Positions 35,245 through 41,228 of a stretch of DNA of 64,000 bases are shown piece after piece; within the stretch, counting starts at the first letter, position 1, and every line of letters starts with the position of its first letter. Source of the DNA: Sagittula sp. P11 (lineage in GTDB: Bacteria; Pseudomonadota; Alphaproteobacteria; Rhodobacterales; Rhodobacteraceae); assembly GCF_002814095.1 (NCBI RefSeq), contig NZ_CP021913.1, forward strand, positions 744,001-808,000, read 5' to 3'. The notes beneath the pieces are model-generated. The model was not told where the DNA came from and did no database searches. It saw only the letters and a list, made by a program, of their open reading frames with translations. Both the position numbers and the translations under genes were made by a program.

Positions 35245-35877
35245 TCAACTGTCTGATTCTTCACCTTCAGGCACGCGGGACGTGACGATCTCGTCTATGA
35301 GGCCCCATTCCTTGGCCTTTTCGGCGTCCATGAAGTTGTCACGCTCAAGCGCGGCCTCCACCGCCTCGTAGGTCTGGCCGGTGTGCCTCACGTAGATTTC
35401 ATTGAGGCGGCGCTTCAGTTTGATCGTTTCCTCGGCGTGGATCATGATGTCCGTCGCCTGGCCCTGGTAGCCACCGGAGGGCTGGTGCACCATGATGCGC
35501 GAGTTCGGCAGCGAGAAACGCATGCCCGCGGCACCGGCGGTCAGCAGGAGCGACCCCATGGATGCGGCCTGGCCGACCACGAGGGTGGAGACCTTCGGCT
35601 TGATGTACTGCATCGTGTCGTAGATCGACAGGCCGGAGGTCACGACACCGCCCGGCGAGTTGATGTACATCGAAATCTCTTTCGACGGGTTCTCTGCCTC
35701 GAGGTGGAGGAGCTGCGCCACCACCAGCGACGACATGCCGTCATGCACCGGGCCGTTCAGGAACACGATGCGTTCCTTCAGCAGGCGCGAGAAGATGTCG
35801 TATGCGCGTTCGCCGCGGCTGGTCTGTTCGACAACCATGGGAACGAGGTTCATGTAGGTTTCAACTGGGTCTCTCAT
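35245..35877 (-). CDS. clpP: ATP-dependent Clp protease proteolytic subunit ClpP
   Basis: 210 residues, standard ClpP. Catalytic Ser in [14 protein letters not shown], His in IMVHQPSGG and Asp in the [19 protein letters not shown] segment. N-terminal [33 protein letters not shown] is typical, including the propeptide-like start. Forms tetradecamers with ClpX or ClpA. Divergent from the photolyase-like gene, so both promoters lie in the ~90 bases between. No CIRCE element seen. Confidence 0.97.
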
Positions 35878-35975
35878 CTCGGGCCTGCCTGCTGCTGCGT
35901 CATTTGAGTGTCGTATCGTCGAGGTGTTACCTGAGTCTTAGTATCGGGGTAGAGGGGCTGCAAGTGGCGGCGGGT

Positions 35976-37226
35976 ATGTATGGCATCACGCTTGAAGCGC
36001 GGTCGCCGCCCCCTACCCTTCCGCCCGTGACCGATCATACCTTCCATCCCTCGCGTGAGGCGGCCCTTGCCGCGCTGTCGGAATTCGTGCCGCGGGCCGG
36101 CCGGACCTATGCCGAGGGCCGCAACTTCGACCATGGCCCCGGACGGCGAGACGCCGTGTCGCAGCTTTCGCCCTACCTGCGGCACCGGCTGATCACGGAG
36201 GAGGACGTGCTGCGCGCCGTGCTGGACCGGCACACGCCCGATGCGGCGTCGAGGTTCGTGACGGAAGTGTTCTGGCGCACCTACTGGAAAGGCTGGCTGG
36301 AAATGCGTCCGTCCGTCTGGACTGCCTATCGCGGCGGTCTGGGACAGGCGTGGAACGACGTGCAGACGCAATCCGGCCTGCGCGGACGGTGGGAGGATGC
36401 CTGCGCGGGCGAAACGGGGATCGACTGCTTCGACGCCTGGGCGCGGGAACTGGCGGAGACGGGCTATCTGCACAACCACGCCCGCATGTGGTTCGCATCG
36501 ATCTGGATCTTCACGCTCGGCCTGCCCTGGGAGCTGGGCGCCGATTTCTTCCTCCGCCATCTGCTGGACGGCGATCCGGCCTCCAACACCCTGTCATGGC
36601 GCTGGGTGGGCGGGCTGCAGACGCGCGGCAAACACTACGTCGCCACGGCGGAGAACATCGCCGAATACACAGGCGGACGATTCCGCCCCGCACCCGGCGA
36701 ATTGAACGAAGATGCGGCATCGCTCGACGGCCCGCTCCACCCTGATCCCATTGCGGCACCGGAGAGATCACGGATCGACCTGCGGGACTACTCCGCGCTG
36801 ATCCTGCACATCGACGACCTGTCGCCGGACTGGCTGCTGGACGACGGTCTGACGCCGCTCGTGACCTTCGTCCTTGCCCCGCCGGCGGACGCGACACCGC
36901 TGAAGATGTCGGACCGGGTCCAGGACTTCCGCCGCGCGGCGCTGGAGTCGACGGTCGGGCGCCTGTCGTCCCGCCTTGGCCGCGTCGTGCCCTGTGCGGA
37001 TGCCGGGGCCTTGAAGGCCGCCGTCGCTGATCTGGGCGCGGCGCGGGCAGTGACGCCCCATGCGCCCGTCGGGCCGGTGGCAGAGGCGCTGACCGAGGTG
37101 CCCGCCGAACGCGCGCTCAGGCCCTACGATGCGCGGGCCTGGCCCCATGCGACCGCCGGTTTCTTCAAGTTCCGCAAGCACATCTCCGCGCTTCTGGCGG
37201 CCACGCGGGGGATCGAGGTCGTCTGA
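35976..37226 (+). CDS. Photolyase/cryptochrome FAD-binding-domain protein with inverted domain order
   Basis: 416 residues from the ATG at 35976; GTGs at 35964 (AGAGG upstream) and 36027 (best homologous start, no ribosome site) are alternatives. Residues ~60-240 are the FAD_binding_7 helical domain of photolyases: SQLSPYLRHRLITEEDV, FVTEVFWRTYWKGWLEMRP, CFDAWARELAETGYLHNHARMWFASIW and DGDPASNTLSWRWVGGLQT. Normally the alpha/beta antenna domain precedes this; here no N-terminal alpha/beta domain exists, and a Rossmann-like domain (YSALILHIDDLSPDWLL ... ALKAAVADLGAARAVTPHAPVG) follows it. Light-dependent DNA repair or photoreception is plausible, not shown. Divergent from clpP. Confidence 0.82.
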   Translation: MYGITLEARSPPPTLPPVTDHTFHPSREAALAALSEFVPRAGRTYAEGRNFDHGPGRRDAVSQLSPYLRHRLITEEDVLRAVLDRHTPDAASRFVTEVFWRTYWKGWLEMRPSVWTAYRGGLGQAWNDVQTQSGLRGRWEDACAGETGIDCFDAWARELAETGYLHNHARMWFASIWIFTLGLPWELGADFFLRHLLDGDPASNTLSWRWVGGLQTRGKHYVATAENIAEYTGGRFRPAPGELNEDAASLDGPLHPDPIAAPERSRIDLRDYSALILHIDDLSPDWLLDDGLTPLVTFVLAPPADATPLKMSDRVQDFRRAALESTVGRLSSRLGRVVPCADAGALKAAVADLGAARAVTPHAPVGPVAEALTEVPAERALRPYDARAWPHATAGFFKFRKHISALLAATRGIEVV

Positions 37227-38649: not shown

Positions 38650-39927
38650 TTACGGATGCGCCTTGAGGTACTCGATCACCGCGTCGATTTCCTCGGCCTT
38701 GCGCAGACCGGCAAAGGCCATCTTGGTGCCTTTGACGTAATCGCGCGGCTTGGCGAGGAAGGCGTGCAGCGCCTCGCTGTCCCAGACCCCGTCCATGCCG
38801 TCCATGGCCCCGGAGTAGCTGAAGCCGTCGACAGAAGCGATGTCGCGGTCGACCACGCCGTTCAGGACAGGGCCGGTCTTGTTCTGGGCGCCCTCGCCGA
38901 CCTGGTGGCAGGCCTGGCACTTCTTGAAGACCCGCTCGCCCGCGGCGACCAGTTCGGGATCGAGCGCCGCGTCTTCTGCAGGCGCGTCACCCTCGGCTGC
39001 GGCTTCCTCGACAACAGCCTCTTCGGCGGGCGCCTCGGTCTCTTCGGGAACGGACGCGGTGTCGGCCTCCGGCTGGGCGGTTGCGGCGGCGTTGGAGTTG
39101 TTCATTTCCTCCGGCGCTTCGTCGCCGCCCTGGTCGGGCGTCACGTCGAGAACCGTGGCGCGCATGGTGATCTCCACCGGGCTGTCCTTGCAGTTTTCCA
39201 TGCAGGGCTCGGTCCGCCACTGGCTGTACTCGGTCTCTGCCCGGTCATCGACAATGAATCCGTCGGCGTTGGGCATCTCGACCTCGCCCCATGTCTCGCG
39301 CGACAGCTCGAACTCGTCGTCGATGATGTCGTTGGAGTAGAGGATATAGGCCACGATGGCATAGACCTCGTCATCCGACAGCGACTGCGCGTTGCCGAAG
39401 GGCATGGAACGGTGGACGTAGTCCCAAACGGTCGACAGGTAGGGCCAGTAGGAGCCCACGGTCTTCAGCGGATCGTCGTCCGCCAGCGTGCCGTCGCCGC
39501 CCGCCAGCTTGGGCCAGTTGCCGACACCTTCCGCGAAGGAGCCATGACAAACCGCGCAGTTGTCCTCGAACAGAGGCTCGCCGTCGGAGGCATTGCCCGA
39601 ACCGTCCGGCAGGTCGGAGCCGTCGGGGTGCACGTCGACGTTCCACGCGGCGACCTCTTCGGGCAGGGCTTCGCGGCCCAGACCGAAACGGGTGCCGGTG
39701 CTCGCCTCGTCCGCCTGCGCGCTGGCAACGAACAGACCGTCTGCCGGGGCGGACTCTGCCTGCTGCGCCGGGGTTTCCGGCTCGGGGATCGGGGCGGGCA
39801 GTGCCGCCAGCATCGGCGGGTTCTTCGGCTGCGGTGCGACGTTGCGGTCGGCGAAGTTGTAGGCCGCCGTCAGCATCACCACGAGACCGACAGCAGTGCC
39901 GCCATAGAGTTTAAGAGACTTCGACAT
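38650..39927 (-). CDS. soxD: SoxD, dihaem cytochrome c subunit of sulfane dehydrogenase
   Basis: 425 residues. N-terminal hydrophobic helix (LYGGTAVGLVVMLTAAYNFA) serves as signal or anchor. Two c-type haem sites: C124-A-V-C-H128 in a SoxD-type first cytochrome domain (LFEDNCAVCHGSFAEGVGNWPKLAGGDGTLADDDP) and C337-Q-A-C-H341 in the C-terminal domain, joined by an Ala/Glu-rich linker of about 60 residues. With SoxC it removes six electrons from the sulfane sulfur on SoxY. Starts 17 bases inside the end of soxC. Last gene of the operon; soxEFGH do not follow. Confidence 0.95.
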   Translation of the reverse strand: MSKSLKLYGGTAVGLVVMLTAAYNFADRNVAPQPKNPPMLAALPAPIPEPETPAQQAESAPADGLFVASAQADEASTGTRFGLGREALPEEVAAWNVDVHPDGSDLPDGSGNASDGEPLFEDNCAVCHGSFAEGVGNWPKLAGGDGTLADDDPLKTVGSYWPYLSTVWDYVHRSMPFGNAQSLSDDEVYAIVAYILYSNDIIDDEFELSRETWGEVEMPNADGFIVDDRAETEYSQWRTEPCMENCKDSPVEITMRATVLDVTPDQGGDEAPEEMNNSNAAATAQPEADTASVPEETEAPAEEAVVEEAAAEGDAPAEDAALDPELVAAGERVFKKCQACHQVGEGAQNKTGPVLNGVVDRDIASVDGFSYSGAMDGMDGVWDSEALHAFLAKPRDYVKGTKMAFAGLRKAEEIDAVIEYLKAHP

Positions 39928-41188
39928 TTTCCGCCTCCCCGTTGGCTTTCACGTGCCAGGTCTGGATACAGTTGTTGTGGTAGATCGAGTTCAGGCCGCG
40001 CACCTCGCGCAGTTGCGCCTTGGTCGGCTGCACGTAGCCCGTCTCATCGATGGCGCGGGACTGGAGCAGCCACTCCTCCCCGTTCCAGGTGGTGTCGAGG
40101 TAGAAGCGCACCAGCGCCTTGTCGTCGCCGGGGTTGGCCAGACGCGCGGTTTCCCACGTCATGCCGCCGTCCTTCGAAACATCGACGCGGGAGATCTTGC
40201 CATGGCCGGACCATGCCATGCCTGTGATGACCACCGGGCCATGGCCGTGCTTGATCGGCGCCTGCGGGCTGGGCGAGGTCACGACGGACTTGGCGTCCAT
40301 GACCCAGGTCCACTTGCGCGAGGTGCCGTCCGCCAGCGTGTCCGTGTACTTGGAGGTCTCCTCGCGGCTTTCGACGGGGGCGTCCATGACCTCGATCCGG
40401 CGGAGCCATTTGACCCACATGTTGCCTTCCCAGCCGGGAACGACGAGGCGCGCAGGGTAGCCGTGTTCCTTGCGGAGCGCCTCACCGTTGGCCTTGAAGG
40501 CCACCAGCACGTCGTCCATCGCCTTTTCCATCGGGATGGAGCGGCCGTTGGAGGAAGCGTCGGCACCTTCGACGTAGACCCACTTGTCCTTGAAGTCGCC
40601 TGCCGCGTCGAGGCCGGCCTCGGCCAGCAGCGTGCGCAGCGGGACGCCGGAATATTCCATGTTGTGGATCATGCCGTGGGTGAACTGCGCGCCGTTGAGC
40701 TGCGCCCCTGCCCATTCCATGCCGGTGTTTGCGGCGCATTCGCAGAAGTAGACGTGGTTCTCGCGCGGGAAGCGTTCGAGATCGTCGTAGGTGAAGACCA
40801 AGGGCTTGTCGACGAGGCCATTGATCATCAGGCGGTAGTCGTCCTTCGCCAGCTCGATCGCGCCGGAGTGGTGCCGTTCGAAGGCGCAGCCCGCAGGGGT
40901 GATCGTGCCGTCGAGCGCATGGATCGGCGTGAAGTTGATCGAGGAGATCGTGTCGGCGGTCAGCCATTCCACGTTGCGGCGGATGACATCATTCTCGAAC
41001 CGGATCGGCAGACCGTAGGGCGTGGCATCGACACCGTCGCCAAGGCCGGTCGCCCAGTCCTGCACCTCTGTGATCAGCGGATCGGGGTCCGCCGCCTTTG
41101 CAGCCGTTGCGACCACGGCCCCTGCCCCCAGCGCCGCGGCGCTGGTCAGGAACTGCCGGCGCGACGGCGCGGTCTTTTCCTTGCTCAT
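39911..41188 (-). CDS. soxC: SoxC, molybdopterin subunit of sulfane dehydrogenase
   Basis: 425 residues from the ATG at 41188 with AAGGAG upstream; an ATG 30 bases earlier overlaps the operator. Twin-arginine signal SRRQFLTSAAALGAGAVVATAAKA. Sulfite-oxidase fold with the molybdenum-ligand Cys in the VYFCECAANTGMEW stretch, and a C-terminal dimerisation domain (VVITGMAWSGHGKISRVDVSKDGG). Periplasmic partner of SoxD in the Sox(CD)2 complex. Presence of soxCD predicts complete oxidation of thiosulfate to sulfate without sulfur globules. A perfect ATTC-N8-GAAT site lies 25 bases upstream. Confidence 0.96.
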   Translation of the reverse strand: MSKEKTAPSRRQFLTSAAALGAGAVVATAAKAADPDPLITEVQDWATGLGDGVDATPYGLPIRFENDVIRRNVEWLTADTISSINFTPIHALDGTITPAGCAFERHHSGAIELAKDDYRLMINGLVDKPLVFTYDDLERFPRENHVYFCECAANTGMEWAGAQLNGAQFTHGMIHNMEYSGVPLRTLLAEAGLDAAGDFKDKWVYVEGADASSNGRSIPMEKAMDDVLVAFKANGEALRKEHGYPARLVVPGWEGNMWVKWLRRIEVMDAPVESREETSKYTDTLADGTSRKWTWVMDAKSVVTSPSPQAPIKHGHGPVVITGMAWSGHGKISRVDVSKDGGMTWETARLANPGDDKALVRFYLDTTWNGEEWLLQSRAIDETGYVQPTKAQLREVRGLNSIYHNNCIQTWHVKANGEAENVEVS

Positions 41189-41212
41189 GGCATACTCCTT
41201 ACGGATCATGTC

Positions 41213-41228
41213 ATTCATCTATGTGAAT
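41213..41228 (+). promoter_or_regulatory. SoxR-type operator upstream of soxC
   Basis: ATTCATCTATGTGAAT: a perfect ATTC-N8-GAAT inverted repeat (arms extend to TCATTCA/TGAATGA). On the minus strand it reads ATTCACATAGATGAAT and shares ATTCACA with the other sox sites. It lies between soxB and soxC, 25 bases before the soxC start, implying an internal regulated promoter. Confidence 0.65.

Follow-up and report, generated by a model that had tools for sequence, protein, structure and literature searches.

A forward-strand gene at positions 35976–37226 of the window, the whole 64,000-nucleotide stretch of the Sagittula sp. P11 genome that was analysed, encodes what is, with a probability that we place at roughly nine in ten, a photolyase of the NewPHL/SPL (short photolyase-like) class. 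The protein is thus a putative FAD-dependent blue/near-UV photolyase that most likely splits cyclobutane pyrimidine dimers (CPDs) in single-stranded DNA, the single-stranded substrate being suggested by analogy with the published class. Three features lead to this assignment: the photolyase-type FAD-binding catalytic domain is N-terminal, a second domain is C-terminal with no antenna domain at the N-terminus, and the protein carries a Trp dyad, not a triad. The domain order that had been noticed by eye in a first-pass annotation is real, but the novelty that was implied does not hold, as the class was published in 2020-2021 and already carries the name NewPHL/SPL; the protein is a further member of it.

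We take the M. mesophilicum protein M7YZC8 to be a characterised NewPHL. The class itself reportedly goes back to Emmerich et al. (2020, Nucleic Acids Res. 48:12845) and Xu et al. (2021, Mol Biol Evol 38:4505). In a citing paper, NewPHLs/SPLs are presented as enzymes of CPD repair in single-stranded DNA that were described in 2020, with an ‘inverted domain topology’ in which the catalytic domain comes first, and with members in D. shibae (A8LJA9), M. mesophilicum, E. litoralis, and R. centenum (PMC13274461). Elsewhere, SPLs are counted as one of eight superfamily groups, are viewed as a possible ancestor or root of the family, and are described as lacking an N-terminal alpha/beta domain (PMC9178010, PMC9498864, PMC9649867; see also PMC12083526). 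Compared by way of such descriptions in citing papers, no difference was found between the window protein and the class, the common features being the leading catalytic domain, the Trp dyad, the missing N-terminal alpha/beta domain, and the occurrence in Rhodobacterales.

The gene and its relatives

The reading frame is uninterrupted from the ATG at 35976 to the stop codon at 37224–37226 on the plus strand and specifies 416 amino acids. The open frame extends a further 104 codons 5' of this ATG (520 residues in total), and this upstream stretch overlaps, in antisense, a divergent neighbour (35245–35877, minus strand) that is presumably clpP and whose ATG lies 99 bases from that of the NewPHL gene. 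In 32 of the 80 best relatives a stop interrupts the region that aligns with the window protein's N-terminal residues, and in 72 fewer than 100 open residues stand ahead of the aligned start, so that a hidden N-terminal antenna domain can be discounted and the earlier observation that nothing of the kind precedes the catalytic domain is borne out. Pfam likewise found no match to the PF00875 alpha/beta antenna domain in the 416-residue protein, on which ground a class I CPD photolyase was rejected; a bacterial photolyase of the FeS type was rejected for want of a DPRP match and of a conserved set of four cysteines in the protein. The divergent clpP lies at most 400 bp away in 52 of the 80 relatives and farther off in 12, and it was not seen in the loci of the other 16, some of which end at contig ends. 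The divergent layout (35245–35976 in the window) possibly houses a common regulatory region. On the minus strand at 38650–41218 there are ORFs that by eye resemble a c-type cytochrome and a molybdoprotein similar to sulfite dehydrogenase (SoxD/SoxC-like), which suggests sulfur oxidation.

A scan of genome contigs recovered at least 549 stretches that encode a relative, the best 80 of which are 45–64% identical to the window protein and come, judged by their record titles, mostly from Rhodobacterales. The alignments comprised the window protein and 79 of these 80 loci, one (L078) being left out for an internal stop, and chance is excluded as an explanation of the architecture because the 79 aligned relatives retain 45–64% identity over their full length. 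These relatives also bear on the notion that the gene is an ordinary photolyase gene truncated by pseudogenization or by an assembly error, which the missing N-terminal domain and the Pfam match to only positions 1–127 of the 203-position FAD_binding_7 profile might suggest. With the same architecture intact in 79 of the best 80 of at least 549 relatives, and an internal stop in L078 only, truncation is refuted and retains a negligible probability.

Within the window's own family a full-length match (E <1e-90) was present in 30 of 100 genomes, that of the window included; one of these 30 (G092) has a TGA inside its match. In one genome of the family, G063, there are two matches to the NewPHL over its full length (E 4.5e-129 and 3.9e-95). 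Plasmids also carry such genes: of 165 plasmid records with a match, 5 reach a query coverage of 80% or more (Niveispirillum, Peteryoungia, Ruegeria, and two of Asticcacaulis). A tblastn search of 50,697 phage records returned 10 with a match, none of which covered 80% of the query and all of which were below 60% identity, and a scan of viral contigs found no relative; a phage or viral origin was rejected, there being no full-length relative in either collection. At three loci (L066, L074, L077) the NewPHL gene is immediately preceded, on its own strand, by an open frame of 505–590 aa for a photolyase/cryptochrome in which the antenna domain is N-terminal, as in the usual domain order; at L077 only 9 bases separate the end of the upstream ORF (3955) from the start of the NewPHL ORF (3965). 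A gene on a plasmid of Deinococcus sp. AJ005 (L085, 2387–3757), annotated as FAD-binding domain-containing, also places the catalytic domain first; its C-terminal part gave no match to the C-terminal domain profile and is possibly diverged or a different domain.

The genome of the window encodes two further members of the superfamily: a class I photolyase with an antenna domain (C1:20283–21668), which contains the only PF00875 match of the genome (C1:21216–21668), and a homologue of the FeS-type DPRP (C1:2157647). No further FAD_binding_7 gene that could encode a DASH protein was found in this genome. The 2020 abstract of Emmerich et al. is said to state that NewPHLs substitute for DASH proteins, and the set of photolyases seen here, an antenna photolyase and a DPRP homologue with no further FAD_binding_7 gene, fits such a substitution.

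Catalytic domain and active site

The helical catalytic (FAD-binding) domain occupies about residues 20–250 (36033–36725, plus strand). The sole Pfam match of the protein is to FAD_binding_7 (residues 94–222, E 1e-21), and photolyases and cryptochromes of the PDB match by sequence from about residue 23 to residues 220–231, E. coli photolyase (1dnp) at E 1.3e-16; beyond residue 231 no photolyase or cryptochrome of the PDB matched, the single match there being weak (E 0.41) and to an unrelated protein. An AlphaFold2 model computed from the 80-sequence alignment reached a mean pLDDT of 93.4; it consists entirely of helices over residues 27–231 and is alpha/beta over residues 274–410. Thus the Pfam match and the model concur with the first-pass annotation that the FAD-binding domain comes first and an alpha/beta domain after it. 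In a structure search, residues 17–251 of the model superposed on photolyases and cryptochromes at Z 13–16, a range that the tool warns can arise by chance for helical bundles, with which the sequence evidence for the catalytic half nonetheless agrees.

In the register given by alignment to 1dnp, E97, W100, N167, M171, N204, W208, and W210 are conserved in all 80 sequences and W185 in 79 of them; the Trp dyad of W185 and W208 lies at 36528–36605 (plus strand), as do the FAD-site residues N204 and W210. We take E97, W100, N167, M171, N204, W208, W210, and W185 to correspond to E274, W277, N341, M345, N378, W382, W384, and W359 of the E. coli enzyme, with roles in contacting the dimer and the flavin. 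Class I CPD photolyases have their alpha/beta antenna domain at the N-terminus and a tryptophan at the third position of the triad. The catalytic domain and active-site positions of the window protein are like those of E. coli PhrB (1dnp) and the Synechococcus enzyme (1owl), whereas its alpha/beta domain is C-terminal and its third triad position, that of E. coli W306, is T131. Across the 80 sequences this position is threonine in 55, serine in 11, and tryptophan in none, which fits the ‘mere Trp dyad’ reported for the Dinoroseobacter shibae NewPHL (PMC8948257). A conserved set of four cysteines was not found in the alignment, only two columns having cysteine in at least 16 of the 80 sequences. 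An FeS cluster has been proposed for the ancestors of SPLs (PMC9649867), and the lack of such cysteines does not support a cluster for this branch.

By this arrangement, FAD would sit in the N-terminal helical domain and be photoreduced via the W208–W185 dyad, and the excited FADH- would pass an electron to a flipped-out dimer in contact with E97, W100, N167, M171, and W210. Judged from these residues, the simplest account would be a photolyase for CPDs that is supplied with its electron via a dyad. The first-pass annotation had also entertained a stand-alone flavin photoreceptor with a new C-terminal domain, in which that domain would serve as the output module of cryptochrome-like signalling. 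The superfamily does include photoreceptors, and a likeness of the C-terminal domain to universal stress proteins (Z of about 7.4) also speaks for this reading. Nevertheless, the residues of CPD repair are invariant in 80 of 80 sequences and the fold of the C-terminal domain is already known. Moreover, published relatives repair CPDs (PMC13274461). A photoreceptor is accordingly not favoured and we regard it as quite improbable. The sequence is compatible with a signalling role that the protein may have alongside or instead of repair.

The C-terminal alpha/beta domain

The C-terminal domain (residues 268–416; 36777–37223, plus strand) has, in the AlphaFold2 model and in its matches to PDB structures, a fold like that of photolyase antenna domains. 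Modelled alone, this half of the protein (pLDDT 94.0) forms five strands with helices between them, and the ten best PDB matches by Z are all to the N-terminal alpha/beta part of photolyases. The closest solved folds are the N-terminal domains of two FeS-type enzymes, namely R. sphaeroides CryB (3zxs; Z 8.7, rmsd 2.7, 110 aligned, chain residues 1–132) and A. tumefaciens PhrB (4dja; Z 8.6, rmsd 3.7, 137 aligned, chain residues 2–168), from which the window protein differs in its reversed domain order and its lack of a conserved four-cysteine set. The comparison of a predicted structure with photolyase alpha/beta domains, which had been suggested as a check on the domain's nature, therefore places these closest, with universal stress proteins and Cam1 (Z 7.0–7.4) about one Z unit lower.

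Two origins can be considered for this domain, and the choice between them leaves membership in the NewPHL class untouched. It is somewhat probable that the domain truly descends from the antenna domain of photolyases, with that of the FeS-type 6-4 photolyases as its nearest counterpart. A more tentative reading is that a Rossmann-like or universal stress protein-like domain was recruited independently, such that the inversion would represent convergence and not permutation. Recruitment is favoured by the small distance in Z between the best photolyase and the universal stress proteins and Cam1, and by Foldseek, which with the C-terminal model gave nothing at E ≤0.001 and ranked a universal stress protein first (E 0.0028) and CryB second (E 0.0030). 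It is also favoured by an hhalign comparison of the C-terminal profile with 30 antenna domains (the antenna matches that were assigned a locus), which fell short of significance (probability 2%, P 0.023), and by HMMs of the C-terminal and antenna domains, which, run against the ORFs of the examined loci, gave no cross-hits at E 0.01. Against recruitment stand the ten best matches by Z, the fact that the structural alignments begin at chain residues 1–3 (at 23 for 8a1h) and take in as many as 143 of the 149 residues, and the short hhalign match, weak as it is, which sits in register at a GAxxV..YxP stretch. Pfam applied to the C-terminal part alone (188 aa) found no family up to E 10, and a sequence-profile search of the PDB found no chain covering the domain; two TetR regulators (E 0.002–0.007, profile positions 199–304) were taken as chance matches.

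The circular permutation put forward by the first-pass annotation is thus upheld in part: the predicted fold is antenna-like and an inversion by permutation is favoured, but sequence profiles do not prove homology. Judged by title, none of the literature retrieved on photolyases and circular permutation concerns an inverted photolyase. The domain would probably pack on the catalytic domain and seal the FAD site from solvent, not carry an antenna pigment; Emmerich et al. (2020) reportedly ascribe such shielding of the FAD site from solvent to the C-terminal alpha/beta domain of NewPHLs.

If the C-terminal domain does descend from the antenna domain, NewPHLs would be either real circular permutants or keepers of the ancestral domain order of the superfamily, in contrast to the loss of the alpha/beta domain that is implied by the description of SPLs. 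Homology between the two domains, if true, would bear on the order that was ancestral in photolyases and cryptochromes.
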